A DNA stretch of 64,000 nt, taken from NCBI GenBank assembly GCA_018287875.1, contig JAGVVL010000022.1:1178001-1242000 (forward strand), in the 5' to 3' direction. The DNA is from Nigrospora sphaerica. Lineage: Eukaryota; Ascomycota; Sordariomycetes; Amphisphaeriales; Apiosporaceae. Below are positions 38,891 through 60,103 of the stretch, one piece after another. Under the pieces are notes generated by a model. That model did not search any database and was not told the origin of the DNA. It worked only from the letters and a program-made list of their open reading frames with translations. Position 1 is the first letter of the stretch. Every line of letters begins with the position of its first letter. A program made the position numbers and the translations under genes.

Positions 38891-38978
38891 TGCTCATCAG
38901 AACGGAGATTTCGGCTTCCGACCTCTTCCTCTACGCTCTTGTGTAATTGGTGTTGTCCGCCGATGGCCTAATGGCGGG

Positions 38979-39994: not shown

Positions 39995-40702
39995 AGGAAT
40001 GACTCTAAAGTGACGGAAAGTCAGGTATTTATATAGCCTTGGAGCCAGTATTGGGTTTTATAACCTACACCGCCTGCTGCCCAACAGTTGGCACGATGAC
40101 TATTCCACCTGGACTGAGAGAGGGTGCCAAACTGGTCTGCTGCAGATCACTCTATCACGAGGGCACGAAACGTAGAGTGGATATAGCCATGTCAGAACCA
40201 AACCTCGTCATTCTTGCCGGGTTTCCCGAGGGAAGACCTGTCAGCAGATCACGCAGTACGTCGTGGCACTTCATCAGCCAGCGGTTGTAACCTCGGCAGA
40301 GGCAAACATGACCCATCCCCACCTCGTATATGCAAGGACTTCTGCATGATTCAGGTCGTGGTAAGTTGTAGAAGGATTGCAGCGGATTGACTCAGGGCCA
40401 AGACTAAGGCTTCCTGAAGAAGCAATTCTTGACTCATGGAGCCTTTCGTAGCGATCGAGTGATCCTTGCAGAACCTTGTAGGTTTCCAGAACAGGAAAAT
40501 ACTTGGACGCCGACGTGTTTGTAGATGGAGTTAGTGGATTGATCAACCCACCTAGATGCTGGAACCCTGGTAAGTATTGGTCGTGATGAGTCACTGACCT
40601 GCATGTCCTGAAACCCTAAGCGCCACTCCGTCTCCCTCAGACGCCGCAGCAGGCTTGGGATGTACCATACGGGGGGTTAGGATGGCGTCCTTCGTCACCG
40701 AC
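39995..40702. other. Gap without a supported gene
   Basis: Only short open frames occur (for example 40274-40594 minus, 106 codons, no domain). No repeats except the start of the duplication at 40703. Confidence 0.35.
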
Positions 40703-41010
40703 TGATATGACTCAGTGGCTGCATTGTATCACTCGAAAGATTACCCTTTAGGGAAATGTGCTTACGGGTCTTGAGTAAGTAGTGTATGGCGACCTAAGGT
40801 TACAATAGGGGTAGAGGTGGAGGGTAACGGGGGTCATGAGTCAAGACCCTGTGAGAAAGTATTAACTACGGCGCAAGACTACGAAATCGGGTGAATATCA
40901 CAAAGATAGGGGATGTAGGAAATGTGCGGGCTGACGAATTGGTGTACATTTAGAAGTGGAAAATGGGCTATTGTTAGGCCGGATGTCACCAATCGAAGAC
41001 TGCATGGGTC
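40703..41010. repeat. Diverged tandem duplication, unit 1
   Basis: Shares CAGTGGCTGCAT, GTTACCCTTTAG/ATTACCCTTTAG, TGAGTCAAGACC and an ending ACCAATCGA with the unit 351 bp downstream, in the same order and strand. Non-coding. Confidence 0.75.
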
Positions 41011-41053
41011 GTACTCTGCTACAGAGAGTAGTATGGCGCTCCTATCCCATACG

Positions 41054-41353
41054 CAACATGACACAGTGGCTGCATGGTATGACTAGAAAGGTTACCCTTT
41101 AGAGAAATCTGCTTATGGGTGTTGAGGGGTGGTACATGGCCACCATTGGTTACAACAGAGGCAGAGGTAAGGGGCAACTGCAGTAATGAGTCAAGACCGT
41201 TAAAGGAAAGTATCAGCCACGAAAACATTACCATGTCGGGCAACTATCTCAAGGAAAGGACATATATGACACAGGCCGAGTGAAGAGCAGGTACACACCG
41301 AAAAGTGGCATATGGGCTGTTAATTAAACAGAATATTACGAATCGAGAACTGT
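41054..41353. repeat. Diverged tandem duplication, unit 2
   Basis: Second copy of the roughly 310-bp unit at 40703. Differences are spread along the length, so the duplication is old. Confidence 0.75.
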
Positions 41354-42268
41354 CCAGTTCGCAACGAATAACACCCCGCTATGGCCGTCGATTGAACTGG
41401 ATTGACTGCAAGCCGAATATTAGCTGGCACGAGGCTATTGGTCAAAGGGCTGACGGAATGGGAAGGGGAGGCACGCAAGAGCGCGTGGCCAAGGCCAGCA
41501 CCCTCCTCTGGACTGGAATGAACGGGCAAATGAAAAGGGTAGGTACTAAAAGGAACTTGAAGGTACTTGGCTTGCGAAGCCCCACAATAAGGACGCGAAA
41601 AGCAGCGAGAGGTGCTATGGCCGAGGATTTCCCGAAGTGGCAATCGCCTAAAATGGCAAGCCAGTGCCGCCATTTCCGAAGGCAGGCAAGCCGTCTCATA
41701 TATTACTTTTAAAATAATTGAATAATTATTTAACATAGTTACACATATTTCAAGCGGTTTTATAAGTATAACATAGCTATTAATATAAACTTACTCTTGT
41801 TACTTAACTACTCTTCATATGATTTTACTCTTTAGAGTACGTATCTATATCGTTTTAATTTAAAGGATACTAATCCTCGCTAATATTACGTATTTCTCTT
41901 TACTAATAATGGGCCTTCTTTACTCTTTAACGGTTCATGATCGGTGTGGTGGCCCGAGTGGTGGATGTTGAACTTATACTATTTGATTAGAAAACGTCCT
42001 GCTTAATAACCCCTACAACTTAACATGGCTGTAGCTCTAGTCGTAACCATGACCCTAGATATATCTAGCAGTATTGATGGCACCACGACACGTTGAAGAT
42101 TGAGCCGACATCGGGGTCGAAAGATGTGTGAAATCGAGTATGCTTTAATGTATCCGTGGAGGAATCGGCTTCGGCGTTCTTCAGGCGAGGGTCGGATTGA
42201 CGGGGCGATTCGAAAAGGTTCCAAGACCACCGCTTAGGCACATCCTCCACGGCCATGCTGCGTTCATC
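41354..42268. other. Gap including an AT-rich block
   Basis: 41695-41945 is strongly AT-rich with frequent TA steps, as in RIP-mutated DNA. The remainder shows no supported gene. Confidence 0.45.
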
Positions 42269-42475
42269 TTAACAGCAGCGGCAGCCGGCGCATAGCAGGT
42301 ACGTGGCAAAATCGTCGCCGGACTGGGCAACGCGCTTGAGCAGAGACATTCCGGGGACGTCCTGCTTGACCTCGAAAGGGACAGCCCCGGTGTTGTCGCT
42401 GTCTGGGAGCAGCGGAGCGGCCAGAGCGCCGCTAGCGAGGAGGGTGACGGCCAAGAAGATATTGCTGAAATGCAT
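42269..42475 (-). CDS. Small secreted peptide with Kex2 site and Cys-rich tail
   Basis: 68 residues, single exon. MHFSNIFLAVTLLASGALAA is a clear signal peptide. A propeptide follows (PLLPDSDNTGAVPFEVKQDV) and ends in LLKR, a Kex2-type Lys-Arg site. The remaining 20 residues finish FATYLLCAGCRCC, four Cys in seven positions at the very C-terminus. This is the layout of a proteolytically released secreted peptide. It could be a second RiPP-like precursor, a disulfide or metal-binding peptide, or a small effector. It lies about 900 bp from the repeat-type precursor on the same strand. No family recognised and function unknown; if it is a toxin, this cannot be seen from sequence. Confidence 0.68.
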   Translation of the reverse strand: MHFSNIFLAVTLLASGALAAPLLPDSDNTGAVPFEVKQDVPGMSLLKRVAQSGDDFATYLLCAGCRCC

Positions 42476-43371
42476 TTTGGACAGTGGGGAACAGTTGAAG
42501 CTTTAGAAAGGAGAGGCGGCGAGGACGGCGAGAAGGATAATAGCGGCGACAGCGGCAAGGACGGTGAAGACGGCGTTGAATGGATGGTGGTGGTGGTAAT
42601 AAGATGCATTCTACAAGAGAAAGAGCCGGCTTAATATATGTTCTACCGACCTGTTCATAGTGTCCCAAGTCATGTCATCGCCGATTAATGATATTCGAAG
42701 TTCTTTTCCTTTGTTCTTCGACAAGTTTCCTAAGCTGAGCTTGATGCTTCACAATGGGGCGAAGTTGCTGACAACAACTTGGCTGACCGCTGCGGCTGAC
42801 GACTTGGCGTTGTGACGATCGCCTTGCCCACGGCGGAGCGATTAGTCCGGTCTAAAGCTAACACTCCCCACAAGCCGACGCTAGGCCATTATGATCTGTA
42901 AGAAGTCGATCATTTCCCTAAACATGCCACAGCGCGGATAGCACTAGTGGTGTATGGGTACATGGGTCGCCGGCGAAGATAGATACGTACGTAACGAGAC
43001 AACCCACGAGCTCAAGCAAAGGATCGTCTGGGAACAGGGGAGATATGGTGCTGTTGCTGAGGTTTGTTATTTCGTTGGTGGCGGAGGTACGCCGTGGTCG
43101 GCCGCCTGGCGTGAAGTAAAGGACAGCTAATAGAATACCAGCAGCAATTGGATCGGTTGATACAGATATACCGAGGACCAAAATATTTAGAATAAGCCTT
43201 CTATAGACATGCTTAATACTAGATTCACTTAGAGGCTTATGAATTGTGTCTCATATTCTTCAAGGGGAATATACAAGATATAAAGACGTTAAAGTACAGA
43301 AGATCTGCTTATCCCTAACGTGATAGTTTAGAAAATGAGAGATAGGGTTGGCTTAAACCAGACGGCCATTC
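42476..43371. other. Intergenic between the two peptide genes
   Basis: No gene supported. It contains the promoter side of the small secreted peptide gene. Confidence 0.4.
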
Positions 43372-43848
43372 CTAGTAGATGGTGCCGCCGCGGGTCGCCG
43401 CCTCGAGCTCGCCCTCGTCCTTCTTGTAGATCGTACCACCACGGGTCGCCGCCTCGAGCTCGCCCTCGTCCTTCTTGTAGATCGTACCACCACGGGTCGC
43501 CGCCTCGAGCTCGCCCTCGTCCTTCTTGTAGATCGTACCACCACGGGTCGCCGCCTCGAGCTCGCCCTCGTCCTTCTTGTAGATCGTACCACCACGGGTC
43601 GCCGCCTCGAGCCCGCCCTCGTCCTTCTTGTAGATCGTACCACCGCGCGTCGCCACCTCAAGGCCACCTTCGTCTCTTTTGTTCATGGAAAAGTCGTCAT
43701 CATCGTAATAGTCCATGGGGCTTCGCTCTAAAGAGTACGAGTTAGAACTCATTAACTTAATGGACAGAAAGAACCTTAACTTACTCATGACTGGGGTAGC
43801 CAAGGCGACACCGCTGACAGCGAGTACGACTGCGACTGAGAAACGCAT
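43372..43848 (-). CDS. RiPP precursor with six Lys-Lys-separated repeats
   Basis: Two exons (43785-43848 and 43372-43727) around a GTAAGT...CTAAC...TTTAG intron; 139 residues. MRFSVAVVLAVSGVALA is a signal peptide. Splicing itself builds a Lys-Arg site (VMKR), followed by a Tyr/Asp-rich spacer SPMDYYDDDDFSMN and a second Lys-Arg. Six units of the form DEGELEAATRGGTIYKK follow; the first two read EGGLE, the first has Val for Ala, and the last lacks KK because the protein ends at Tyr. This is the layout of Kex2-processed fungal RiPP precursors (ustiloxin, phomopsin and asperipin type), where each repeat yields one core. The invariant TRGGTIY end makes Tyr, and possibly Ile or Thr, the likely crosslink sites. 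UstYa-family genes start 1.2 kb away. The product is unknown. Confidence 0.85.
   Translation of the reverse strand: MRFSVAVVLAVSGVALATPVMSKLRFFLSIKLMSSNSYSLERSPMDYYDDDDFSMNKRDEGGLEVATRGGTIYKKDEGGLEAATRGGTIYKKDEGELEAATRGGTIYKKDEGELEAATRGGTIYKKDEGELEAATRGGTIYKKDEGELEAATRGGTIY
43378..43683 (-). repeat. 51-bp tandem repeat, six units
   Basis: Six direct copies of a 51-bp unit encode the precursor repeats. Four central copies are identical at almost every base, while the two outermost are diverged, which indicates recent homogenisation or expansion. Confidence 0.92.
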
Positions 43849-45024
43849 CTTAGAATGATCTGAATAAGTCGGAGAGGGCTGGATTCCTTAGGTTTTGAGG
43901 GATTCTCTGGTTCAATAGTGATTTACGACGCAATTCAAGTCGCAAAGATATCCATACAGATATAGGATTGAATTGACAGTTTAAGCAGTTCCGCTTAGTC
44001 AAAAGGGTAAGTGTGGGTTAGAAAAGCATATACCAATCCAACGTAATTCGTTAGTATCGCGTGGTATCCAGAGCATTACGTGGACCAGGTCCATCAAGTA
44101 GCTTCGGCTTACGCAAGTCTGTTCATCGAAAGTGTAAATGTAAATTGGAAAAACGTGATTCGATAGTCTAGCGTCATCCGCTGGTGTTACGTAATATCTA
44201 AAGCATTACGTAGACCAGGATTATTAGCACCCTATGCCTAGTAGAATGTCGTAAGCTAGATGACATCAGATACATCTATCTAAACCTTATTAATCCAGGC
44301 GGAACACCCACTATATGATCTACTTTTCTCTGTGGAGTAATAGTGGCGGAAACTTTTGTGTTTGAAGGTCCGGTGGCAGTTTGAAGAGTGGATAAACTGG
44401 GTGGCGCAGCGGTCGGTTAAGGCGCTCATGGGTTTTCCACCATACAACATCGTCATTATCCTCGTACGTAGACTGTAACAGGTGGAAATAGACACGGAAT
44501 AACGATGAGTAAGTAGTCACAAATTAGACATATACTCTACTTGCAACATGTTGGTTCATTGCCTATTGAGAATAACGGGGCAGACACGGCAACACTAAAG
44601 CGGCGTTCAAATCTAACTTAAAAGCAAGTTCCTAGGTTTTTCACCCGGCCGGACGTCAGCCCGGAACGGTTTTCCTAGGCTAAGATGCGCAGGGGGTCCT
44701 CATGGCCTAAATAGGTCGCTAGGTGTAAGAATAATAATAATAAAAGCAAGTTGATACACGCTGTGGAAGTTGCTACTCGGCCACAGTAAAGAAAGTTAGA
44801 AAAGAGTAGGCCACTCCTGCTCCTATCGCCGTCATAACTGTTACTAGAAAGCCTGCAATGACCGGGAGCCATAGATTTCTAAGCAAAGAAAGTTAGACCA
44901 TGGACGCTTAGAATCGGTACGAGGCATTGGCTGATAAGGCGTAGAGAAGTAATCAATTGGCCAATAAATATACCGATAAAAGCTTTTTTTACTATATCTT
45001 ATTTGAACATCAACTCTTATCTGG
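43849..45024. other. Intergenic with a LINE tail insertion
   Basis: Contains the precursor promoter (minus strand, above 43849) and the LINE tail at 44631-44741. An ORF of 66 codons near 44320 could not be supported. Confidence 0.4.
44631..44741 (+). mobile_element. 111-bp LINE 3' end insertion with 11-bp target-site duplication
   Basis: CCTAGGTTTTTCACCCGGCC to the AAT tail is nearly identical to the 3' end of the LINE at 2720-3149. AAAAGCAAGTT flanks both sides (44620-44630 and 44742-44752). Confidence 0.93.
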
Positions 45025-45720
45025 CTAGCAATACTCTCTATAGGAAACAGTAGGCGTCTTCGTGTTGATAAGGGTGTAATTTTCATGCTTCTGAACCATG
45101 GGTAAGAGCATTTTGACGCAGTGATGCAGATGACTGTAGTCGCGAAGTTTTGGCGTCGCTGCGGTGCCGTCTCGAAGAACCTGCCCAACACTCAAGAAGA
45201 GGAATAGGCAGTGCGTCAGGTGCTCGCCGTGGCGGCTGTAGAGCTGCATGTTGTTGTTCATTGCCTTCTCCCATTCGGGTGCCGTAGCCTCGGTCCCCCA
45301 CGGATCCGAAAAGAACTTCCACTCATCGGTCGCAAGATACTCGTCGTTGGCGTAGTGAGGGCACTGCGGAGGGTACCATGCCCACATGAGCTGGTCAAAC
45401 GTGCATCCAGCAGCACGCGCTTCTCCGGTCGAATTGCCGCACACGTATTTCTGTCGCGAGTCGAATGGGTGGTGCGGATGCAATGTAGCTTGGAAGACAA
45501 GAAAAGACGCGGCGGATATCACAGCGATGCCGCACACACAAACTAGTGCCACGTACAGTCGTCTTCGTGTATTGCCTAAGAGAAGTCGAAGATTCCGCGA
45601 GAATGGTTTGATCAACGCGGCATCCTCTTCAGCCTTGGATTCAATATCCACACTGTGAATGCTTTGTGAAAGATGTTGGTAGTCGTGGGACTTGGTCCCT
45701 AAGAGAGATGATTGTGACAT
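45025..45720 (-). CDS. UstYa-like membrane protein A
   Basis: Single exon, 231 residues from MSQSSLLGTKSHDYQHLSQS; an upstream in-frame extension looks non-coding. One membrane helix (LYVALVCVCGIAVISAASFL) anchors a lumenal domain. The domain has YVCGNSTGEARAAGCTFDQL, then WAWYPPQCPHY, and two HxxHC motifs, HLTHC and HLHHC, the paired metal-binding motif of the UstYa family. UstYa proteins catalyse oxidative cyclisation of RiPP cores. This member belongs to the branch with a CG..EAR..GC.FD block shared by proteins C and D here; that branch is less studied. Divergent from gene B across 435 bp, which suggests joint control. The closest UstYa homologue to the precursor (1.2 kb). Confidence 0.8.
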   Translation of the reverse strand: MSQSSLLGTKSHDYQHLSQSIHSVDIESKAEEDAALIKPFSRNLRLLLGNTRRRLYVALVCVCGIAVISAASFLVFQATLHPHHPFDSRQKYVCGNSTGEARAAGCTFDQLMWAWYPPQCPHYANDEYLATDEWKFFSDPWGTEATAPEWEKAMNNNMQLYSRHGEHLTHCLFLFLSVGQVLRDGTAATPKLRDYSHLHHCVKMLLPMVQKHENYTLINTKTPTVSYREYC

Positions 45721-46155
45721 TGCTTTGTGATGGAAGAGGTAATACAGGGCGGGGAAAACAAAGTGGTTGGTACTTCTCTTCGAAGTCCACAACAGAGCCG
45801 AGTCCAGCTCTTTCAAGGAGCATAGGGTGACGATATGGAAGGCATAAGGGAACTTACATAAACTAGACATGCAGTGTTTGACAGGGATTAATGTTAGCAT
45901 GAGTATCACCACAGACAGTTTACGTGAGAAATTTTCTTATCACGTAATTCAACGTAAGCACAAGATAAGTATAGCAGGACCCATTCACGACTTAGGTGGC
46001 GTCTCCACTACATCCCACCACAACACACGTTTCGTTTTCTTCCTCGTAGATCCAGACTTTTTGACTCACCAAAGAAGGAAAAAGCCGTCTCCCTGTCGGC
46101 TCTCGGCTTCAGCTTCAGCTCGATCCTTACTACAACTCACTACTCATCGCCGAAT
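45721..46155. promoter_or_regulatory. Divergent promoter region, UstYa-like A / UstYa B
   Basis: 435 bp between divergent starts of two probable tailoring genes. CT-rich tracts precede the gene B start. No operator identified. Confidence 0.45.
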
Positions 46156-47223
46156 ATGCTCTTGTCGTACAGGGACAGTCCCAAGCCCGACTCGGGCAGC
46201 ACCGAGAGTCTTCTTGCTTCATCTGAAGAAGCTTCCGAATATGTGAGAAAAACTCCCGGGTCATTCCGCCTGGCGGTTCTGATCCCCTGGCTACTTTGCC
46301 TCGTCCTTTTTGCTTTGCTGGGGCTCTCTTCTGTGTTTCGGCCCCAGGGATACGGCTACGGTGACTTCTGGGGTCCTTACGAGTTCAGTAAGTTGACCCT
46401 GTAGACCATGTATGAAAATGAATTCTCACTAGCTGCAGAACCCGCTACAAGAGAGTTACCTTGGGCGTATCACGATGTCCAGTTCGACGCTGCTCTTCAC
46501 TACAATTCGAGCCATCTACTATACCGACCAATCACAGATCCTCCATTTGTCGGAGACCCCTCCCCTGAGATCGATGCAGCTTGGAAAGGCCTGATGGGAT
46601 GTAAGTTTCGGAACTGTGCGATTGACATCTTCGTTGCTGAAACAGAATATAGCCGTCGATATATTTGTGACACCCGACGAACAGAAGGAATACGGCCAGA
46701 GCTTGTGGCTTGACCCAGACACTGGTCTTTACGTTGGGCTGTATGTATTCTCGGCGTACTACACTTAGTTTGAGCTAAAAATCGTGTAGTCTATCCGTCA
46801 TGCATGACCTTCACTGTATTGTGAGTTGTCTTCGCTTTTATTATTCTTCCATCTCCGCTGACAGCTATAGAACATGCTTCGCATGAACTTGAACCCGGAA
46901 TACTATCCCAAGATGAAGCATTACACAAACAAGATCCACATCGGTGAGCATGGTTCCCTAGGCTCGTATGGAAAAAGCTAACAGGGTTGATGAAAGAACA
47001 CTGCATTGACGCCCTCAGGCTAAGCATCATGTGCAAAGGCGACATGACACTGATACCGACTAAAGACTCTGATAGTCGACCTTTCGAGGCCGTCTTCGAG
47101 TCCGTCCACGCCTGCCGAGACTTCTCGGCTATTAGGGACTGGTCTCTTGATCGGGACTCTGCCACACCAGAGAAGTACCACGAAAACGCGGATGCTTTAA
47201 AGAAGAAGAAGGGGATAATGTAA
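46156..47223 (+). CDS. UstYa family oxidase B (canonical)
   Basis: Six exons (46156-46387, 46439-46600, 46653-46740, 46790-46820, 46871-46943, 46997-47223) give one frame from MLLSYRDSPKPDSGSTESLL. A single membrane helix (LAVLIPWLLCLVLFALLG) is followed by the UstYa domain: YRPITDPPFVGDPSPEIDAA, PDEQKEYGQSLWLDPDTGL, VMHDLHCINMLR (first HxxHC) and KIHIEHCIDALRLSIMCKGD (second HxxHC), ending HACRDFSAIRDW. This is the canonical DUF3328 layout. The second motif is complete only if the last intron ends at GATGAAAG; the more usual CAG 10 bases earlier would leave MKEHC. UstYa enzymes form Tyr-based ether or C-C macrocycles in RiPP cores. Likely the main cyclase for the nearby precursor; inference. 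Confidence 0.85.
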
Positions 47224-47995
47224 TTAAACTTTTTCAATCTTCATTCCTCCTTTTTTTAAACGTACGAAGAACAGCTTTAGGCCGCATACCAAAGACAAAT
47301 CGCTGGTCCTTTGACTTGATATTGTAAAATTGTTGCAGCTGCGCTACGTGCGTGGCCCTCGAAACTGGTAAATGTGGCGGCTTTAAAAATCTTGTTATGA
47401 ATCGTCAGGATACGACTGGAGAATTCTAATTAAACCCGCGTATAGGTCACATTTTGTGTATTTACGACTCGCACAGAGTAAAATTGAGCTACAACGCACC
47501 CCGTAATTCCGCAAGGTGGATATTTGCAGCAGTAAATATGACGACGTAAAAAGCCCTATTGGAGTGGCGGCGGCGTGTTCAAACATGTGACTATCATGGC
47601 ATGTGCAAAACTACTAAAGATGAGACATTTACTAACTAGAGCCGCCTCCGGCTTCGGAGCGATTAATTAAAGACGGATCTTCGGATCTAATGATGATCTC
47701 TTACACCGTGTCTTATGCCAGGATGGCGGATGCCAGGTAGGTGGCTCAAGGAATCTTACCTAATGGTGTTATACCTGCTGACATGAGCAAGCGCGACCGC
47801 GAAGCTATGCAGGTCACGTAATTCGTCTCACGTAAGAGGTACACGGTTGAGATCTGCTGACGAACTAAAATTAATTCGGCAGTTTATCCCTTCGCAAGGG
47901 AAGCGAGCTCATTGAAAGCCTCCGAACAATTACTCGTAGCTGGCCGCATGTCTACGGCACCTTGAGACTGATTCACGTTCGGGCCTGAAGACACA
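47224..47995. other. Intergenic, no feature recognised
   Basis: Spacer between two co-directional UstYa-family genes. Presumably promoter of gene C. No repeats identified. Confidence 0.4.
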
Positions 47996-48754
47996 ATGCC
48001 CCCAGACGAAGAGAACCAACCGTTTCTTGACAAAGCGTACAGCAACGAGTTGCACGCAACGCCATCTCGCCTACGTGAACTCTCAGTGCTCTCCAAGCTT
48101 TGGAAACGGCGGCCTGTCATTGTGTGGACCCCCCTATCGACCGGACTTGCCGTTTTTACTCTCACCTCGCTTTTCTGGGGTGTAATATTCTTCCAGTTTT
48201 TCGCCCGTTCCCATTCCATACCCAAATTGACCAAGATACCCAACCTCGTCGACCACAGCCATGGAAAACCCTCCCCGGCTGACGCCAACTTCACACTACA
48301 CGCGAGCTGCGGCAAGACAATTGAAGAATCTCGACGCATGGGTTGCAAGTACGACATCCTGAGCAACCACTGGGTTCCGGCCGCCTGCATGGATGACGTC
48401 GCCGTCGCCGTCTACCAAAAAGATGACGGGCCCTCGTGGATCGGGTACCTTGACCAAACCCGCACGCAGCCGATAGGCAGCCCCGAGGCTATGGGTGACG
48501 TTGCCGTGTACCACACCAACATGCGAGACCACATTGTGCATTGTTCTGCGCTGTGGAAGAAGCAGTTCCGCGCTTTCTACGAAGACAGGACCTACTACGA
48601 CTCGATGTTACTCGATCCCATGCATACTTACCACTGCGCCGATTTCTTGGTCGAGATGACGGATAAGGGAGGTGTGGATTTCCGTGCGATCACCATTGAA
48701 GTGGAGGTCGGGCATGCAAAGTGCTGGACAAGGGGGAGAACATGCAAGCAATAG
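47996..48754 (+). CDS. UstYa-like membrane protein C
   Basis: Single exon, 252 residues. The cytosolic N-terminus reads MPPDEENQPFLDKAYSNELH, then comes a membrane helix (STGLAVFTLTSLFWGVIFFQ) and a lumenal domain with ASCGKTIEESRRMGCKYDIL, NHWVPAACMDD and two HxxHC motifs, HIVHC (in DHIVHCSALWKKQFRAFY) and HTYHC. It shares the CG..E.R..GC.[FY]D block and spacing with proteins A and D. The Cys residues probably form disulfides in the lumen. Co-directional with UstYa B. Role: probably a tailoring enzyme or partner in the RiPP pathway; its specific reaction is unknown. Confidence 0.78.
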   Translation: MPPDEENQPFLDKAYSNELHATPSRLRELSVLSKLWKRRPVIVWTPLSTGLAVFTLTSLFWGVIFFQFFARSHSIPKLTKIPNLVDHSHGKPSPADANFTLHASCGKTIEESRRMGCKYDILSNHWVPAACMDDVAVAVYQKDDGPSWIGYLDQTRTQPIGSPEAMGDVAVYHTNMRDHIVHCSALWKKQFRAFYEDRTYYDSMLLDPMHTYHCADFLVEMTDKGGVDFRAITIEVEVGHAKCWTRGRTCKQ

Positions 48755-48938
48755 TTGAAAGATATTGATGGCCCAATGTATATTTTGGTAGATCTTCCAC
48801 GGAAACGTTGGCGGGTTGTCCCTCTGCACTCTTTCACTCTGGCATGGTCAGTCAACAGCGGCCACAGCTTCCGTAGGTGAGCAGTTTTCGACCATCACAA
48901 ACAATATGGAAAAATTAGGGAGTTTATTTTCTCACCAG

Positions 48939-49821
48939 CTACGCATTGACATTAGCCCCGTGGGCCAAGAGGAGTGAAACAAGGGACTCCGAGCCCCCTT
49001 CGACGGCAGCGTGGAGGGCCACCTTCCCTGTGGCATCCTTCGCATTGACCTGCACCTCCGTCTCCTCAAGAAGGAGCCGCGTCGTGGTCTCGTGTCCGGC
49101 CTTGACGGCCAGGAACAGGGCGGTACGGCCCAGTGCGTCGACGCCGTTGGGGTCCGCGGCCTCGTCCAGAAGCAACTTGACGACAGCGTCCTTTCCGGCC
49201 GCGGAGGCTAGGTGCAGCGGCGTGCAACCGCTGCTGTCTTGCTTCTCGACGTCGGCACCGCTGAGAAGCAGCAGCCGCGTCATGGACTCGTTTCCGTCCC
49301 CAGCAGCCAAGTGGAGGGCGGCCCGTCCGGTGGGCGCGTCGGTGGCTCCCATTGTCCCTGTCCCTGTCCCTGTCGGGGTCGGTGTCGGTGGAGAGGGGAA
49401 ATGAAAAGGAGACGTGTCCGATCCGCTACCCCAGGCTGTCTCGAACTCCATGCACCATGGGCTTCTGCTGCTTTCAAAATTGCTTGGCTCGGCGATGCCC
49501 GGCGTTTTGCTTATGCTGGTGAGACAATCCACGAATGTTTCAAAGGGAGGCGACGATAAGAACGGCTCCGTGTCACATGACTGCCTAGACACGGCGGATT
49601 CTAGGGCCATGAGCCGTTGTTTCTGGTTTTTTCCTAGAAGTAGCAGTGAGCGCTGGACTTTTATCACCCTCAACACTTAGTCCTCTCTTACGATATGTTC
49701 GCTGTGCGATACGATTTTGCATCCTTTTACGTTCTTTCTTGTCGTCATTGCCCTTGACTGGCGTTGCCCGCATAGCGTGTGACATGACAATGGAGCTGCT
49801 AGGAAACATCGCAGAAGTCAT
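48939..49821 (-). CDS. bZIP-ankyrin (bANK, TOXE-type) transcription factor
   Basis: Two exons (49692-49821 and 48939-49633) joined by GTAAGA...TTCTAG. The join gives KKERKRMQNRIAQRTYR then KNQKQRLMALESAV, a fungal bZIP basic region without a long leucine zipper. After a Ser/Pro/Gly-Thr-rich linker come about four ankyrin repeats: GRAALHLAAGDGNESMTRLL, GCTPLHLASAAGKDAVVKLL, GRTALFLAVKAGHETTTRLL and GKVALHAAVEGGSESLVSLL, ending AHGANVNA. This basic-region-plus-ankyrin design is that of TOXE, the regulator of HC-toxin genes, and its apicidin-cluster relative. It therefore supports a secondary-metabolite locus; that it controls this RiPP set is inference from position between UstYa genes C and D. 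Confidence 0.87.
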
Positions 49822-51399
49822 ATTCGCGATTTAACCCAAAGCAAATCCCTTGTACTCCTGAGATGGTCACGAAAACCAGTGACACGCTTTCAGCACGTAC
49901 ATTTCCTCATTTATAACTAAAGATTGTAAGTATTTATCGTGGTAGATATATTAATGTGTTTATGCCGTTCATCCTATAATTACTGTGATAGGATCTGTGC
50001 CACATCACTGCGTTATCTAAGTCCTGCAGATCACTGGGACCCTTACCCCTCCCTTCAGATACTTCTGATCAAGATATTCCCAATGGTTGATAAGGTACAA
50101 AAAACCCTGGACCATGTACTTGTGGCAGGTGACCTTAATTAAAACCAAGCACGGCTCCGCGGCCGGAGCCATTTGCATGAGACAGCTTCGCCAAGGAACC
50201 ACACTGACATCAGCATGTTTGCATGGTCAGCACTAGAGCGCGGCACCAGCAAGTCCATGGGGTTCGGTCAATTTCTATGGTCCACCTCCTATTTATCCGC
50301 GGGGGCCGAAATCCTTTATGCATTGTTACCCCCACCTGATGCTGACATGGTACCAATGCATCGCCGCCCTTCCATCCTTGCTCTGACACTCATCCCCCTA
50401 TACACAGTCAGAACACTGCCGGTGAATGAAGGCTTGATGGAAACCACCTGAAACTTTGAACTAGGAACGATTGGCCACTTCCTGTCATTAAGAATGATCC
50501 TCACCAGTTGCGAATGAAACTGTTGGTGCTAATTGTTCGAAACCAAGTTTACATTTAAACGACAGTACGTATTGCTCTACCAAGGAGCCGTGCCGGTGAC
50601 CAAATTACTTTCCGGGCATATAGGTCAGGGAACGCTCGTATTTTGGCCTGATGAAATGATAGGAAGCTCACTGATGTGAGGCTTATCCAGCTTAAAGGTC
50701 TATTTAGTGTGGCGGAACATGCTGTCAGTCGCGTGCCCAATTCAACCTGCTTAATTGGCCTCTTTCGCGCTATACCCTTAATTGTTAGGACAGTGGTCGG
50801 GGACTGGTACCGAGGGAGTCGAAAGATTCCGCCACCCAAGCTAGGGGGATGCCGCCCCGGGGCCTAGATCCCGAAGTTCTTCTAGCTGAATAAGGAAGTT
50901 CCAAACTTCTAGCCACGGCCCTGAGCTAGAAGACCTGCGTTCGCAAACACACGCATGCTACCCCGCGTGAAGATGGCTCGAGCACCATAACTGTGATGGC
51001 AGGTGGTCGGATAGACAACCAGTGTGGGCCGGCAGACCTGACGATCCGTGCCACGGCCGTGCGTTAGGGCTTATCTCGCATACGCCGGCGCGAACCTAGA
51101 CCTTTTTCTTTTCACCTTAGGCCGTTTTCGGTGCAACCTTTCGAGATCGACTTATTCTCCATTTATCGGTCTGCTGCATAAACGCTGGATTTCTCACAGA
51201 GCCATTCGGTGCCCAGTTGTAAGCTCGGACCACCATCAAGCAGCCAACTGTCACGGGATGACCTGACACTCTGACCACCATGCTAAAAGACTAGGTAGAC
51301 TGGATCGGTAGATCCAGTCATCAGTGTGGCTAAATAGCTTGGAACAGGCCTGCCCCACAGTTTCGGCAGCCTGTTATAGCAACTCATTAAACAGCCACC
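49822..51399. other. Gap without a supported gene
   Basis: Only short frames occur (for example 50173-50451 plus). A sequence starting TGTCACGGGATGACC at 51249 resembles the start of the LTR family seen at 52257 and 60140 but has no matching end. No tRNA found. Confidence 0.35.
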
Positions 51400-52256
51400 A
51401 GTCTTGGAGATAAGATGAAGCTATTCACGGACCTTCAGACGCTATATATTAATAACATCCTATTATATAAAGCTGTAACCTAGTTCTTATTAATAGCTAT
51501 TGTTTTCTCTTTTATTTAATACTAATACTATAAATATTAGGTAGCTAGCTACCGCTCTTTACTTAGTGATTTTTAAGTAATTTATCCACGCCGTTGGTAA
51601 GTAAATTAAATTCTTTAAACATTATTCATAGGCTCGTTTTTATGATAAACTTATTAAACGCACTACATAATAACACTATTACCACTTTAATAGAGAGTAG
51701 GAGTATTAGTTAGTTAATTAAGTGGTTGTCTATTATAAAGTCGTCTTAGTTAAGCTCTTTCTAATAGCCATTTTCGTCTCTTCGCTTAAACTACTTTTAA
51801 TAACTTTAACGTTGACTATTAACTTGGTAAACGTTAGCATTGACGGCTTCTAAGCGCTAGCCGTAGGCTAAGGCCGTTATATTTACCGGAGTCGAATATC
51901 TCTGCGTTAACAGCGTATAGAAAGAGAATATTAAGGAGTTCTACGCTAAGTTTAAGCACTAATAGCCAGCTGGCGTTTCTTTAAAGTATATATAAAACTT
52001 CGATAAGGTTAGGGCTTAAATTAACTTTAAAGACAACACCTTAACTATTGGTTTAGCTATTTTATAATAGGAACTTACAATGAAAAGTAGTAAAGAGAAG
52101 TAGCTAACGTCTTTAAAGGCTATCTTTACTACTAGCTAAGCGCTATTATTTTAATTGTTTTTAAAGACTAGTTTGTTTAGTAGTAATAGTGTATAGCGTA
52201 ATTAAACGAACAGAATTTTTATACCCAGTCCTTTGCAGCCTTTAAAAACGGCTAAA

Positions 52257-52418
52257 TGTCACGGGGCAAGGCCCATGACAGCGGTTACAACCTGACCTGA
52301 CCTAAACCCTTATATATGATAGCAGTGCAGAGCCCTTTTGGTTCTGCATTCTAGTCTTTTGCGCTCGCTAGCGCAGCGGTAGTCCGCTTGAATGCGCCCG
52401 GAGGGCCCCACTATGACA
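52257..52418. mobile_element. Small solo LTR (162 bp) with CTAAA target-site duplication
   Basis: Begins TGTCACGGGGCAAGGCCC, ends GGGCCCCACTATGACA, flanked by CTAAA at 52252-52256 and 52419-52423. Contains CCCTTATATATGATAG, TATA-like. The ends resemble the gypsy LTR at 60140-60428. Confidence 0.9.
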
Positions 52419-52671
52419 CTAAATAACGAATTTAATTAATTTATAGTTGCTTAAAAAAGTGTTTTTATCTTTAATAATATTAGAAAACTCTTAATAGTAG
52501 CGTTATCTTATTCTTAATAGCTTTATTAGCTATATATAAGAGTACTTTATATTATCTTATTTTAAAGCTTAAGTTTTGCTTAACTTATTACCTACGTAAA
52601 ACTCTTAAGTTCTTTAGCCTATAAACTTCATCTCTTTCTTAGTATTAAAGCGCGTTTATCAGAAGTCCATC

Positions 52672-53242
52672 TGTTGGAAGTGGTGGTTTGATCGAAAAGA
52701 GGAAGCAACCCCTTTATAAGGGCTCTTTCGATCTCGGAGGTCGTTTCTATAAAGAAACACGGAAGGATAAGGAACTTCTCTTCAAGAGGAACGAGAGTGT
52801 ATTTCGTGTGCTTGCTTGCTTGCTTCAGGACAGACTAGTTACACGAAGAGGAGAGATTCAGCCTTTACTTATACCCGTTAAACCCTTATCCTCTTAGTAA
52901 TATAAGGAAGAGGACGCGTAAGTGATTGCGTAAGTGATTACGTGGCTTAGAAGCATATGGAACCTTATAGAGGTTTGTGGAGCCTCATGGGGGCTCGTGG
53001 GAGCTTCAGGGAGCCACGTAGAAACTCGTGGAAACTCGTGGAACCTTGCAGAAGCTTCCGCGTGGCGAACGCCACGCTTGTGGGTAAAGCGGGCCATGCT
53101 TGCGGGTAAGCTGGCCCGTGCTCTAGGGTAGGCTGGCCCGAGCTTTAGGATAGGCTCGGTTAAAGGACTAGCTTCTCGTTAAGTGCATAGCTTAGTCCGT
53201 AGTGATAGAGAACGGTATAGGATAAGTCCTATACCTGCAACA
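52672..53242 (+). mobile_element. Solo LTR (571 bp) with CCATC target-site duplication
   Basis: Begins TGTTGGAAGTGGTGGTTTGA, ends CCTATACCTGCAACA, flanked by CCATC at 52667-52671 and 53243-53247. TATA-like CCCTTTATAAGGGC near 52710. The first 36 bp recur at 60104. Confidence 0.92.
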
Positions 53243-54607
53243 CCATCCGTTAATTTTACGTCTTAACTTAAGCCTAACGTTAAAGGTATTACAGTTGTTA
53301 AAGGCATAGAATAAGGCTTATAAAAAGATCTTAACTTTATAATATATAGCTATTACTTAGTGTATAGTTAGAACCTTTTCAAATGACTTTAGTAAGCCTT
53401 TAAATAGCCAAGTAATAAGGTAAAGGGATTAAGATAAATAAAAGGCTGCTCTTTAATAAATTTCGTTATTAAAAAAAGCCCTTTATCATCATAAATGTTA
53501 GTAATTAAGTAGTAAAATTAAAACAATCTTGTCAAGTTTAGGGTATTTATTATAAGCTATATAAAATTAACTTCTTTTACTTAATAGTAAAATTATAATA
53601 CTTTTTCTGAAGACTACAAAGGCCTTTAATCAAGCAACAATTAAGATCGCTACCTTAAGGCAAGAAAAAAATAATTAACTATAGCGCTTGAGTAAAAAAA
53701 GCTAACAAAACATTGTAAAGTTAAGTCTAGCTTTCAAGAACATTTTATAGCGATATCAAATGTGTGTAAGGTTAAAGAGGGGATAGCGGTCTCGTTAGAT
53801 AAAAAAGTATGGTCACTATGTAATATAAACAGGTTCTTATAGAGAACCGGAATGAAAAAGACGCTTTAAAGGTAGAAGAGGTAATTAAGACTTTATAAAA
53901 CCCATCGGCTTATATGTAGCTGCTTTAATTATTAAGATATTTTAATTAATCTACTTTATGGTCATTGTATAAGGCCATCTACAGCAGTGGCTGTTTAATG
54001 GGGTGGCTGCTTGCTAGGAGCCCGAACTTATTGTTTCTCAAGTGTATTTCATAATCTGCAGGATTATAGAGAGCCTCCCACTGATCCAACCGGAATCTAA
54101 GGTTTAGCGTTTCGCTATAGAAGCTGCTTATCTATCTCTTTACTGCCGTTTCCAACGTGGATTGGTTGTTGAGAGACCTGCCTCCACGCCGCGTCTCGCG
54201 CTATTTAAGGGGTGACATACCTCTTAACTTAAGCCGAGTGTATAAAGATCAAGGAATGAGGCTATCGTGAACCTTATCGGCACTAGAAGGGCCTCCGTAG
54301 CGGACTGCGAACAGTCAAAGCCTTTTTATGCTAAACTTTATAACTTTCCTAATATCCATGTCCTCTTCGATAGAGAACAATAAAAGTCAAACAGTGGCTT
54401 AAAAAGTTAAACCACTGTATTAACTTATATCTAAAGGTTAGCGCTTGCTCTTTTAATACTAACGGCAGCTGAAATATCTAAGAAATGAACTTAAGAAGCT
54501 AGATGCAATTGCATAACTCGCACCGTTCACCTGGGTGTCTTCTAAGCTTAATTACGTCTTAAATCGCTTTGATTGCCCTCCATAGACTTTTCCCTATCAC
54601 TCCCTTC

Positions 54608-55374
54608 TTAATTGGGAAGGTGACGTAGCCAGTACTGGTACGAGGCGCAACGAAGAAAGCCTAATGCTACCTTAGTAGGCTTCACCCGCGCTTCTTCCTC
54701 AGTTCGGTTGTGGTAAGTCCCCAGAAGCACACTGTTGCAGTGGCGGATATGGGCGACGGACATGAGCGGCTCCAAGATCGGCCGCCTCTCCCCCAAGGAG
54801 CGTAATGTCAACTCCCACGAGTATGTGCAATGCTTTCGGTGGAACTCGGGTGGCGCGTATATAATGGGAAGTTCGCCACCACTCACTGTAACCAGACATT
54901 TCATGTCAGGAAAGGCCACATATGGAATCAGAAGAGAAATTCGTTCGGCTTACCTGACGTGTCGTCTAGCTCGTACCGGAGATCAGCGTCATGGTACCAC
55001 CCGCTCCTAGTCATTTCGGCCCAATAGTGTCGTGAATGTGCTTCGTCGTAACAGTCCAAGGGAAGCCATTTCTGCATCATGGGATCAAACTTGCAGCCGA
55101 GCTCTCTCGCTTCCGCCGGGGAGCCACCGCAGTCTGTGATGCGGCCTGGTGCGTCCAGTCCTATGCCATGTGACTTTCCCAGGAAGAAGCCGACAATGAC
55201 GGAGATCAAGACGCTCCCTACGAAAAGCGCAAAGAAGACAGCACACCGCCGGCCTCGTCGCTGTTGTGGAAGTTGCCGATCCGTGGTTATGTCTTCATCA
55301 GAGAGGTCCTTAATCGTCTCGTCACTAGAAGATGCTGAAACATGCTTATAAACCGCCTGCTGCAGTTTACTCAT
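54608..55374 (-). CDS. UstYa-like membrane protein D
   Basis: Two exons (54954-55374 and 54608-54895) joined by GTAAGC...TTACAG; about 236 residues from MSKLQQAVYKHVSASSSDET. The membrane helix is CAVFFALFVGSVLISVIVGF. The lumenal domain has DCGGSPAEARELGCKFDPMM, QKWLPLDCYDEAH and two HxxHC motifs, HRKHC (EFHRKHCTYSWELTLRSLGE) and HIRHC. Same branch as proteins A and C. It is intact although it sits between an AT-rich block and a degenerate transposon, 4.8 kb beyond the regulator. It may belong to the RiPP set or be an independent accessory gene. Confidence 0.78.
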
Positions 55375-55733
55375 CGTGAGAAACATGGTGGAAAAGAGGC
55401 TTCAAACATAGACTAGCAAATTTGCAAATGATCAAGTCTTCACGTATGGCCATAGATTTTGTAAAAGTGGCTGGAACCCAGGTATATGCGTGCATGTAGG
55501 GATTACGTCAGGTTTTGTAGAAGCTCAGAAATTCTCACCACACTCTCACCTAATACGTCCCATATTGTCTCACGTCATCCGTATCGCTATGCTTCACGTG
55601 CTAACCGTGGCGCTTACCGTCCTATGCAGCCTACCGACTTACTTCACGGAGTCGGATGAGCCGATTTGGTAACACACAGTAAATAAAAATGCGTATACAC
55701 ACACTTTCAAAGTGCACTCTTGCCTCGCTTTGG

Positions 55734-57874
55734 TAAGTTGGACCACCACTGCTCGGTCCACCCCCTTAATGGGCCACCTAAAAAGTATCACCAACCTCAA
55801 CAACCCCAGCACAGTCACTAATAAATAGCACGGTAACCAGCGCTCGTAAAAATGAATAAAATATACTATTCTACTCCTCTTTTAATTGCGCATCTTATAA
55901 CATGTTGTCCGACCACGAAAAGAACTTGCGTGCAGCCGTTAGAGCCCACCGAAATGGCCTATCTGTATAAGCCGCGGCCATCAGATATGGAGTATCCAGA
56001 ACCACCCTATAGCGCTATATAAACGGCGGTGTTTCGCGCTGTGAGGCCTCTTAGAAGCGTTAAACCCTATCCCCAACTACTGAGAGCTTTTTAATACGCT
56101 GGGTCAAGTTACAGATTAAGCTAGGCTATGCTCCTTTATACTTAAGGTTCCGTCTGTTCGCCATAAAGCTATCCTAAGCTTTAAGGGGCCCTTAGACCCT
56201 CGGAACACACTAGGTCCGGAGATTCCTACGGAGACATCCAGAGTTGAAGACTTTACAAAGCGTACGGTATAACTAGAGACGTGCTAACGCTACATGTTCC
56301 GTTAATATCGTTAAGTTCTTCGACCGGTGTCACGGTTCAAGGAACGGGGGATCTGTTGATGACCCAAGGGTTCTATTGAGATGCGAAAACTACAGGTGAA
56401 GAGGAAAAGAAGAGGAACAGGCTCCTCTCAGTCACTGTTTGCCAGGAATATATCCAGCCAAACGCGGTACGTACCACCGGCCAGAGGTCCATGCGTTCCC
56501 ATGCCCTTGTACCTATGTACCCATGTCGTAACACCGGCTAGATAACCCCCTTATATCGGCTATCCCTCCTGCTTACACTTATAACGCCGACGAAATAGGG
56601 ACGATGGTCGATATCGGAGACGCTCTTCTAGTTATTAGACCTTCTAAACTTAAGGAGGTCATTATTAACGACCCCTTTAACAGAGATTAGGTGACTATTA
56701 TAGAGTGTGTGTTTAGCGATAGCCGAGCTCTCTTCCCTCTAGTTATCTTTAGCAGTAAAAATGTTTAACAGCAGTGGTTTAACGACGAGATGTTTAACGA
56801 CGACGACCTTAAGCAGTGGAAGTTCGGCTCTAAAGGCTCCGGCTAGTCAAACAACGAGATAGCGCTACGTTAGCTACATGAGGTGTTTCTTCCATAGACG
56901 AAGCCTTAGAATTCGCGACAGTGGCGCTATCTGATTATCGACGGCCACAACAGCCATATTAACGAGCCTTTCCTTTTAGAGTGCCTCCAATCGAAGGTCT
57001 GGTTGAGTTTCCTTCCGACGCACTGCTTACAGATTCTCTAACCACTTAACGTCGGCCCTTTCTCAGTGTTAAAGCGGCGGTTCCGGTTTATCCTACATGC
57101 CACTTGCTATTATATAATGGCCACAGTTGCCGGCAAACCAGAGTTCGTGGCGGCCTAGAAACGGGCTCGGAGTAAAGCCCTTACGAAGGAAAAAATCCTT
57201 CGGGGCTAGGAGTCAACTAGCATCTATCTAAGAGACCGATCTAAGGCGCTTAATAGCAGGCTAGCTATGCAGGCCGATACTATGACCGCAGACGCACTAG
57301 ACCGGCCGAAAACACCAAACAGAGCCCTCCAGGCTTTAGAAAACCATCTCCAGACTCCTAAAAACAGTAAGGACCTAAGAGAATTGGATACATCTATGTT
57401 AGCAAAGGATGGTCTACCGCAGACTGCCGGGGTCCGCCGTATAAGCCATCAGGTCCAGAAGGCCCTTGATACTCTCAACGCCACTATTGTGGGACTGCAG
57501 CATAGCTAGGAGCAATTGAAGGCTGCATTAGAGAGACAGAGACCTCGAAAACAGCGCAGAGTTCTCCCTAGGGCCCAGCAAGCCTTCGTTGACATAGCAG
57601 ACATCCAACAAATTAAGGATCAGCTGCAGGACGAGGCTGAGTCTCAGCGCCCGCGGCGCTCTATACGCCGCCAGCTAAATAGACGGTCAGAATCGCCCCA
57701 AATTGAACCAGACCAAGACGAGGAGATAGAGCATGTCGAGGAAGAGATACGCGTTCAGTTTTAGCTATAGAGGCCTCATGGTGGCTGCATAACACCATAG
57801 TGAATAGAGTGGTGTTGATATTCTAGTGACGTGGCCCATACAGGGGGTGGCCCGTTCAGTGGGGTGCTAACTTA
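55734..57874 (+). mobile_element. Degenerate pogo-like transposon with terminal inverted repeats
   Basis: About 2.1 kb. Left TAAGTTGGACCACCACTGCT and right (complement of CACTGAACGGGCC... side) TAAGTTAGCACCCCACTGAA form imperfect terminal repeats. The transposase is ruined by stops but recognisable: MLSDHEKNLRAAVRAHRNGL at the start, a DDE-like LIIDGHNSHINEPFLLECLQ, and a coiled C-terminus QALENHLQTPKNSKDLRELD and SHQVQKALDTLNATIVGLQH. A solo LTR is nested at 56328-56533. Many stops are TAG/TAA where CAG/CAA or TGG would fit, as RIP predicts. Confidence 0.82.
56328..56533. mobile_element. Solo LTR (206 bp) nested in the pogo relic
   Basis: TGTCACGGTTCAAGGAACGG to CCATGTCGTAACA, flanked by CCGG at both ends (ACCGG if the boundary is moved one base). 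Related at the start to the LTRs at 52257 and 60140. Confidence 0.75.
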
Positions 57875-57894
57875 CCACCTCTTGCAGCCCATCA

Positions 57895-58845
57895 ACATGG
57901 ACTCTCCGAGCTACGCTCATCTGTCCGCTCACGATGGCGGCGATTTATCCAGTAGCATGGCGACGAAGTCCCGATGCGCAACCGCTTTTCTTATCTCCAG
58001 TTTTTTTTTCTCTAAATAGCCCTCCTGCTCTCCGTCCTGGCTCTCTTCTTCTCTAGCAATCGGGATATTGTTGAGCAGTGTCCCTCGACAACCTTGAAGA
58101 GCATGCCCCATTGTATTACGCCAGCTCCTCATGAAACTCTCCCAAATCTACTAACGTCTGCAAACGAAAGTCCCAACTAAGGCGGTTCTCTTCGAGGCCG
58201 ACGAGAATTTTATTAGTGCCGCCAGCTTTTCTAACATGTCGGCGCTGGACGCCACGCGGAAATATTGGACGCAAATGAAGGTTCGTAAGTATAATGGAAG
58301 GGCAGTATCTACTGAATGTGTGCAGTCTCCTCCCTCGGCGTCTGCTAATAACCGCACAGGAGGGCACGGGGCCATAGTTGTGGACCCAAGCGACCGTGCG
58401 GGCCTGCGGGACCCCTACGAGATTCCCATCCCAGAGAACGAGCGTAATGACGACAGACGAAGCAAGGAAGAGATTTACATGGTTGCCGTGTTCCATCAAC
58501 TTCATTGCCTAGTACGTATCCTACTAACTCTCCTTTAGAAACCCGTCGTGTTGCTTCTATTATCTTTATTAACCTTAACACATACGCATATAGTCTACGC
58601 TAATAACCTCTTACAGGCACGCTGTTATCGAGGGCAAGGCGCCTAATGATTTGGACCATGACGCCCATTGTTTTGACCTGCCACGCCAGTCTCTCCTTTG
58701 CGCAGCCGATACCACGGTCGAGGGGCAGACGGGCCGTGCTGACGGCTGGGGCACGGTACACCAGTGTAAAGACATGAATGCTATTAGAGTGTGGGTGGAA
58801 AACCGGGCTGGGTTTACATGGCATCACTTTCCCGAAGCATTATAA
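57895..58845 (+). pseudogene. UstYa family gene E, decayed
   Basis: Canonical UstYa relic. MDSPSYAHLSAHDGGDLSSS leads into a hydrophobic segment split by a frameshift in a T9 run and by a TAA (IALLLSVLALFFSSS follows in another frame). Then AVLFEADENFISAASFSNMS, and after an intron (58285-58359) RGHGAIVVDPSDRAGLRDPY, IYMVAVFHQLHCL (first HxxHC) and, after a second intron whose phase does not match, HAVIEGKAPNDLDHDAHCFD (second HxxHC), ending GWGTVHQCKDMNAIRVWVE. At least three frame breaks are needed to read it through, so it is probably inactive. It abuts the pogo relic (20 bp). Confidence 0.8.
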
Positions 58846-60103
58846 CGAGGTTTATCCACGAGTACGGGTGTATGTAACTCATGGGTTTCCTATCAACGGC
58901 GCGAGTTAAATTGCTAGTTATCCCCGGTTCGGCTGGCGTGAGGGGAATTTCCTGGGTATCCACGTGTTCAAACGCTGGCGGCAGTATCGTTCTCCGTCAG
59001 CAACATGCTCGCAATGCAAAGTGTGGTTGTAGTTTAGGAAGGCGCTGGAGTACATAGCATCGCTTTATAGCACACAGTTCCCGCCCCTTCGCTCGGGCTA
59101 TAGCCAGTAACGATGAAAAGTTTTAATGTTCGACAGTGCATAGTGAGAATTATCAGAAAAGGAAGCATTGCTTCCTATAGTCGGGTAGCGGGTGTTTATC
59201 CTAGTACTGCTATGCGACCGTGGAACGCACCACGTTCCGTACTTTACCCGTCTTAATTCGTCCCTTTGCCCCTCAGTCGTCCCCACCTCTCTACCCGTTT
59301 CTCGAGGCGTTCCGCCCTAATCTTAACGAAATGCCCGTTTCGCGTCGCGTTCCGAGCCTAGCCCAACCTTTTCTCGACGCGTCCCTTTATATTCGATCTT
59401 TAAGCGGAGCTTATAGTCTCCCTATTAACTTATACCATGTTCCCTTTAATAAAGCCGTGATAAGAAATAGTATGACTAAAAGATAATAGTCGGCGCTTAT
59501 CTTGTTTATTAAAGAGCGGGATACCTTCTTTAAAGAGCTTAGCTTAATCCTTAACACGTCCGAACGTCCCTTAATAACACGAAAAGTAAAGGGGATCAAA
59601 TGAAAGGTGAAGATTAAGCTATCTGCTACGGCGCTGGCGGCGCTGCTGGGATTATTTAGTCTTAAACACACAGCCCCCACTTTGTTAGATGGCAGGACCT
59701 TAACAGCTACTCTAGATTAGTAGAGTTCTAAGTCCGTCACGTATTATGTGCCGGCTTATAAAAGAAACCTCATTACTCTTAATAAGCGACCTTAATAGAT
59801 AACGGTCTCTATTTCTTTAATCGTTATCTTTTAGTTACTGAGCTTTTTATTAGAGCGCGTTATATATAAAAAAAGACTAGCGATCTATATAAATATAACG
59901 GTTTTAGCTAGATTCGCGCAAGTAATAGCGTTATTATGTAAGCTAACGTTGATAATAACGTTAATTAATAGCGTTAACAATATAAATAGCGTTAATCTTA
60001 AGGTTTAAAGTAGAACGCTTTATAACACTTACGTTGATATCATTAACGTTAAATATAGTAACGTTATTAATAGAAGTCTTATCTTTAACTTTAGTTTAAA
60101 TTT
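58846..60103. other. Intergenic, becoming AT-rich
   Basis: 58846-59380 shows no gene. From about 59380 the sequence becomes strongly AT-rich with many TTAA and GTTAAC-like strings (around 59860-60060), a RIP-like block. Confidence 0.5.

Follow-up and report, generated by a model that had tools for sequence, protein, structure and literature searches.

Gene content and setting of the locus

The window analysed here is a stretch of 64,000 nucleotides (C13:1178001-1242000) from the 51.6 Mb genome of Nigrospora sphaerica, assembled in 33 contigs. It contains a repeat precursor gene, four intact genes with paired HxxHC motifs (A, B, C and D), a decayed UstYa copy (E) and a gene for a bANK regulator. 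The first 16 kb of the window has a GC content of 0.66 and carries ordinary genes (a GH3 glycosidase, a DUF3500 gene, an FAA hydrolase and an FAD-dependent oxidoreductase). Beyond this point the GC content drops to about 0.4-0.5 (0.41-0.50) and transposon genes are present, namely a Tc5-type gene at 17.1 kb and integrase and reverse transcriptase genes at 61.4-63.7 kb. The precursor and oxidase cluster sits within this low-GC, transposon-bearing second part.

The last 10.1 kb of contig C32 (95,099 bases) matches window positions 33674-43780 at 99.8% identity. The alignment has 2 mismatches but 13 gap openings, a number that suggests indel errors in the assembly. C32 terminates inside the precursor gene. 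The precursor match at C32:94697-95056, at first sight a paralogue, was taken to lie on a redundant assembly piece that duplicates the window, and it was not counted.

Two further features were noted near the precursor. A dispersed repeat of about 113 bases (44631-44744) lies in the gap between the precursor and gene A and has at least 40 further near-identical copies in the genome; it matched no Rfam family and no tRNA, and with its flank showed no unusual folding. ORF X (42269-42475, minus strand, 68 aa) has a signal-like start, a KR site and then a cysteine-rich tail VAQSGDDFATYLLCAGCRCC. It is single copy in the genome apart from the C32 duplicate, its resemblance to MF_alpha_N is weak and under the cut-off (E 0.013), and no TTACGTRA-type box was found within 500 bases upstream of it; we do not count ORF X as a member of the cluster.

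The precursor gene and its core peptide

The precursor gene lies on the minus strand at 43372-43848. An earlier note, made from the sequence alone, had proposed an open reading frame at 43372-43887; the coding repeat was right, but the frame ran through a 57-base GT-AG intron (43728-43784) that separates exon 1 (43785-43848) from exon 2 (43372-43727). The spliced product of 139 aa has a signal-peptide-like start, assigned by reading the sequence by eye, followed by KR and six units ending in ATRGGTIY with KK separators. Its N-terminal part is MRFSVAVVLAVSGVALATPVMKRSPMDYYDDDDFSMNKR, after which come the six DEG(G/E)LE(V/A)ATRGGTIY units, and the final tyrosine of the last unit is the C-terminus of the protein. 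At the DNA level the six units, each of 51 bases and encoding KR or KK plus DEG(G/E)LE(V/A)ATRGGTIY, occupy 43375-43680 on the minus strand. The tandem array at 43375-43659 scored 514, so that the six-unit repeat precursor is real as claimed.

The array is open in several frames, and openness alone is thus no proof of coding. What speaks for the chosen frame is its start codon followed by a signal-like stretch, the intron, the two homologues that share the core, and the synonymous variation. Five of the seven TRGGTIY codons vary among the six units and every change is synonymous, while the amino-acid changes fall only outside TRGGTIY. Such a pattern would be expected under selection on the core, although the sample is small, with six units of which three are identical in DNA.

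A protein search gave two homologues with the same core from 5.8 billion proteins (7,993 scored candidates). P0001, from Corynascus sepedonium, has four DE(A/Q)TRGGTIY units, and P0002, from Coniochaeta sp. 2T2.1, has two full units and then runs out. Both also carry the leader MDY(Y/H)DDDDFS found in the window precursor. Comparison of their units with those of the window identifies DE plus TRGGTIY as the conserved part of the unit, whereas only the window precursor has the GxLE(A/V) stretch.

Neither TRGGTIY, TRGGTI and RGGTIY nor AGWLY and RAGWLY were found in the open-access literature searched, and the string GGTIY gave only an unrelated occurrence there. None of the papers listed on the relative genera and RiPPs described a cluster of this kind in its title. 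Within the open PMC papers searched, the core ATRGGTIY thus appears to be undescribed.

UstYa and sister-family genes

Gene B (46156-47223, plus strand, six exons, 272 aa) lies 2.3 kb from the precursor, carries the motifs HDLHC and HIEHC and matches the Pfam UstYa family PF11807 with an E-value of 5.7e-41. Gene A (45025-45720, minus strand, 231 aa) has one membrane-helix-like stretch and the motifs HLTHC and HLHHC, and gene C (47996-48754, plus strand, 252 aa), of the same sister family as A, has HIVHC and HTYHC. Gene D (54608-55386, minus strand, intron 54886-54953, 236 aa) likewise belongs to the sister family, with HRKHC and HIRHC, and lies 6 kb away from the rest of the set. The claim of four intact UstYa-family genes therefore holds fully for B; A, C and D stand outside PF11807 but keep the paired HxxHC motif. 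No Pfam family at all matched A, C or D, and exon 1 of D alone gave a non-significant DUF3721 line.

We aligned 55 sequences of the A/C family (window A and C and 53 of the 81 matches from the homologue search). Throughout this alignment the first HxxHC motif keeps its H, H and C without exception, and the second does so nearly always. Comparison with a UstYa alignment by hhalign gave an E-value of 1.7e-4 and a probability of 49.5% for 51 columns over the HxxHC motif; with shallow profiles the probability was 13.9%. Nine of the 55 members matched PF11807 at E <= 0.1, weakly, with a best value of 0.0011. We take A, C and D to be a diverged sister family of UstYa-kind enzymes, an assignment that depends mainly on the HxxHC motif. 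They may also be related to proteins of the phomopsin locus.

The predicted structure of gene A was good (pLDDT 81), but none of the 10 PDB entries listed for it passed the threshold of E <= 0.001 (best E 6.2). The model of the B homologue P0003, built from 11 sequences, was poor (pLDDT 42) and was left unused for fold comparison. The UstYa alignment profile found no match among solved structures, and the A/C profile gave one chance-level line only (E 0.42). A tblastn search of gene A against plasmids found no match.

Gene E (57884-58852, plus strand) shows 73-76% DNA identity to the UstYa stretches at two other loci of this genome, on contigs C9 and C10. Stops and frame changes interrupt its reading frame, in agreement with the proposal of one decayed UstYa gene. 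E is a stray broken copy of the type found at those two loci, lies outside the A-B-C set and probably has no part in the pathway.

The broken state of E could be read as the mark of a cluster that was once functional and is now dying or silent in a transposon-rich island. The fall in GC from 0.66 to 0.41-0.50, the transposon genes, and the RIP-like TA/AT ratio of 1.43-1.44 at 50-54.5 kb and 58.9-64 kb of the window all fit such a history. Across 42-50 kb, however, the ratio is 0.91, and the precursor, A, B, C, D and bANK genes are all open, with usual introns where present. The core protein is moreover constant across units while its codons vary, and E itself is of the C9/C10 type and outside the A-B-C set. 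Taken together, a dying or silent cluster seems very improbable to us.

Among the 39 translations scanned, a subset of the open reading frames of the window, there was no tyrosinase, methyltransferase or transporter. A Peptidase_S9-like fragment was seen at 13732-14286, 29 kb away.

The bANK regulator and promoter boxes

The ankyrin gene beside gene C (48939-49785, minus strand, 262 aa) consists of exon 1 at 49692-49785, encoding the basic region, and exon 2 at 48939-49633, encoding the ankyrin repeats. The bANK regulator reported earlier is real, but its coordinates had missed exon 1. This exon encodes ERKRMQNRIAQRTYRKNQKQRLMALE, a bZIP-type basic region without the zipper, and it is this region that makes the ankyrin gene a bANK protein. 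Pfam detected four Ank stretches (E 2.2e-28); residues 15-46 matched bZIP_1 with an E-value of 3.7e-4 and 21 bits, below the cut-off of 27.6.

The promoters of the set share a short bZIP/bANK-type box. Upstream of the precursor it occurs as TTACGTAA (44187-44194), in the divergent A/B promoter as the pair TTACGTGA / TCACGTAA (45920-45947, starts 45920 and 45940), and upstream of C as TTACGTGA twice on the minus strand (47814-47835, starts 47814 and 47828). The variants TTACGTCA (55503) and TGACGTGA (55570) lie upstream of D (55503-55577). TTACGTRA is found at five places in the 64 kb, all of them in the promoters of the precursor, A/B and C. Counted over the whole window its matches are not unusual, with 6 against 2.93 expected, a number reached in 12 of 100 shuffles. 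For the wider form TKACGTVA, seven of the eight places in the window fall in the promoters of the precursor, A/B, C and D, which together measure 1,935 bases. When these promoters were shuffled 2,000 times (dinucleotide shuffles), no shuffle reached seven places and none had a place in all four promoters; it should be noted that the promoter set, with D included, was drawn up after the first box counts and that the motif was noticed before testing. In a ranking of 1,831 promoter 8-mers with one mismatch allowed, which is independent of the chosen motif, TTACGTAA came first and TTACGTGA second.

TTACGTRA was absent from 107,604 bases of 20 other loci, one of which (L021) duplicates part of the window, and TKACGTVA was found at seven places in the same bases. 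Paired boxes (TYACGTRA twice, 4-24 bases apart) occur at eight places in the 51.6 Mb, against four for the reversed control; the A/B and C promoters account for two of the eight. Four of the six places outside the window belong to one repeated 26-mer. This 26-mer, with paired TCACGTGA sites at C9:32561, C12:8941655, C13:4219717 and C13:4226543, is a dispersed element.

The bANK gene has no TTACGTRA-type box within 500 bases upstream. ToxE and Apf2 are described as bANK regulators, and the Api-box proposed for Apf2 is TGACGTGA (PMC4109984). Like the window protein, both combine a bZIP-like basic region with ankyrin repeats and are encoded beside a peptide cluster. The Api-box differs by one base from TTACGTGA and has an exact copy in the D promoter, and in Apf2 as in the window bANK the regulator's own promoter is without the box. 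A difference is that ToxE and Apf2 regulate NRPS clusters, while the window product would be ribosomal. We find good evidence for shared regulation of the cluster. The adjacent bANK gene and the TTACGTRA boxes are likely a regulator-box pair, from which we infer binding of the protein to the boxes.

Related loci in the same genome

PF11807 gave 52 exon-level matches in the genome, which fall into 25 loci if those no more than 20 kb apart are merged. Sequence within 10 kb of such a match makes up about 1.1% of the genome. With the duplicate on C32 set aside, the search of the genome with the precursor found one further place (C9, about 405 kb, E 3.0e-7), and this place lies at the end of a UstYa run that spans 394-404 kb. 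The precursor there has seven DNNVDAAATRAGWLY units (L024 5174-5677, plus strand). A second UstYa locus with a repeat precursor, at C10 3.523-3.531 Mb, has six DNNVDAAATRAGWLY units (L025 2192-2686, about 3.523 Mb, minus strand) beside its UstYa run. It came to light in a scan of UstYa loci for repeats and hence gives no independent support; the same check of two UstYa loci on C12 revealed no such precursor array. The repeats of the C9 and C10 precursors are of the ATRAGWLY type, and AATRGGTIY and AATRAGWLY have six of nine residues in common.

Orthologues of the oxidase genes in other fungi

The homologue search with gene B gave 11 matches at E <= 0.001 (949 candidates). The six closest, with 49-71% identity, are from Hypoxylon sp. 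EC38, Corynascus similis, Sphaceloma murrayae, Elsinoe ampelina, E. fawcettii and Hirsutella rhossiliensis. In all of these except C. similis and H. rhossiliensis, that is in four of the six, an orthologue of A and/or C lies on a contig of equal size. Hypoxylon EC38 has A (P0025), B (P0003) and C (P0016) at a contig size of 899,206; S. murrayae has A (CAC42_6557), C (CAC42_6559) and B (P0005) at 1,046,663; E. fawcettii has B (1g085680) and A (1g085690) at 2,345,732; and E. ampelina has B (P0006) and C (P0030) at 1,636,991. H. fuscum has A and C at 206,599. The A, B and C orthologues thus appear to share contigs, as judged from the equal sizes and helped by neighbouring locus tags. Since Elsinoe is a Dothideomycete and the other genera are Sordariomycetes, the spread of the oxidase set is wide and patchy.

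Homologues of the precursor found consistently without UstYa genes would have spoken against the proposed locus type. The Coniochaeta precursor P0002 and an A orthologue (P0023) are on contigs of equal size (1,124,188), but no match from Coniochaeta 2T2.1 was among the B homologues. The genus Corynascus has the precursor together with B and C, though in the records of separate species (the precursor in C. sepedonium, B in C. similis and C in C. novoguineensis). The annotated proteins of Hypoxylon EC38, S. murrayae, E. fawcettii, E. ampelina and H. fuscum gave no match to the precursor; the Hypoxylon, Sphaceloma and Elsinoe genomes may lack the gene, carry a different one or have it without annotation.

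Comparison with known systems and proposed pathway

A DUF3328/UstYa protein with two HXXHC motifs is given as the class-defining dikaritin enzyme, while an older five-gene definition asked for tyrosinase, methyltransferase, transporter and peptidase, at least one of which some accepted clusters lack (PMC12048977). The locus has a signal-bearing repeat precursor with Kex2-type sites and, nearby, the UstYa gene B with paired HxxHC. It resembles the loci of ustiloxin, phomopsin and asperipin-2a in the secreted repeat precursor, the dibasic sites, the adjoining UstYa/DUF3328 gene and the tyrosine of the core. It differs from them in that no tyrosinase or methyltransferase was seen among the translations scanned and that the UstYa gene is joined by three sister-family HxxHC genes. 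The core TRGGTIY also bears no resemblance to the ustiloxin and phomopsin motif EDYxI, in which residues follow the tyrosine (PMC6339444), whereas in TRGGTIY the tyrosine comes last. The paired HxxHC forms a two-copper site in CctR (PMC12435403). Like the DUF3328 copper enzymes of the cyclochlorotine pathway, to which CctR belongs, the window proteins combine the paired motif with an N-terminal membrane-helix-like stretch; CctR, however, hydroxylates a non-ribosomal peptide, and A, C and D are outside PF11807.

The same architecture and kind of neighbour are found in the 1,758 of 7,878 KEPs that have DUF3328 neighbours (PMC7329392). The remaining 6,120 genes of that survey are without such neighbours (PMC7329392), and the precursor could be a Kex2-processed repeat protein of this sort that gives linear, unmodified signal or pheromone-like peptides, with the oxidases acting elsewhere. 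This would agree with the failure to find the precursor in Hypoxylon, Sphaceloma and Elsinoe genomes that do have the oxidases. The box common to the precursor, A/B and C promoters, with exact TTACGTRA nowhere else in the 64 kb, argues for a joint function instead, as does the second place in the genome where a repeat precursor is paired with a UstYa locus. In addition, the last core residue is a conserved tyrosine, and it is at tyrosine that known dikaritins are crosslinked; the KEPs annotated in the survey as mating factors or pheromones are nearly all without DUF3328 genes (PMC7329392). We regard the production of linear peptides as unlikely.

A dikaritin-type (UstYa) RiPP gene cluster is what the locus most probably represents. 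This reading is supported by the UstYa gene B and three paired-HxxHC genes beside a precursor with a conserved core, by the recurrence of the oxidase set in other fungi, the shared promoter boxes and the adjacent bANK gene, and by the position of the sole further precursor place (C9) at another UstYa locus. Several points stand against it. The sites between the units are KK and not KR, the best Kex2 site; five genomes with A, B and/or C gave no precursor match, and Coniochaeta 2T2.1 gave none to B; the link of A, C and D to UstYa is weak by sequence, and the model of A met no PDB structure within the E threshold; and the overall number of TTACGTRA matches in the window is ordinary. The original proposal of a UstYa-type RiPP locus with an unfamiliar core remains the best reading, that is a known kind of fungal peptide pathway with a distinct core and a sister oxidase family, whose chemistry would follow by analogy.

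For such a dikaritin-type cluster we suggest the following course. The precursor would enter the secretory pathway by its N-terminal signal peptide, and a Kex2-like protease would cut at KR/KK, with the lysines trimmed, to release copies of DEG(G/E)LE(A/V)ATRGGTIY, in analogy to ustiloxin and asperipin. In the lumen, the oxidases B, A, C and perhaps D, as membrane-anchored copper enzymes, may then oxidise the conserved ATRGGTIY part and would probably crosslink it, most likely through the C-terminal tyrosine; as this is the last residue of the core, a tyrosine link would have to reach upstream. The acidic DEGxLE part would be trimmed and a small peptide exported, and the bANK protein would activate the cluster genes through the TTACGTRA boxes. 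Processing, copper chemistry, crosslink, regulator binding and product are all proposed by analogy with the known systems.

More tentatively, the cores of the form ATR(G/A)G(T/W)(I/L)Y might define a separate RiPP family under bANK control, in which the C-terminal tyrosine is crosslinked to an upstream residue by a conserved oxidase trio of one UstYa and two sister-family HxxHC members. We see this as possible rather than probable; if true, the ring type would be one that ustiloxin- or asperipin-like pathways do not produce.

The locus is of interest as a compact candidate cluster whose core was not met in the open literature searched and whose enzyme set recurs in distant Ascomycota. The Pfam UstYa model does not pick up the HxxHC family of A, C and D, so that such clusters may be more common than present counts suggest. 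For the dehydrogenated forms of ATRGGTIY the calculated [M+H]+ is 836.4261 at -2H and 834.4104 at -4H, and for DEGELEAATRGGTIY at -2H it is 1579.7234.
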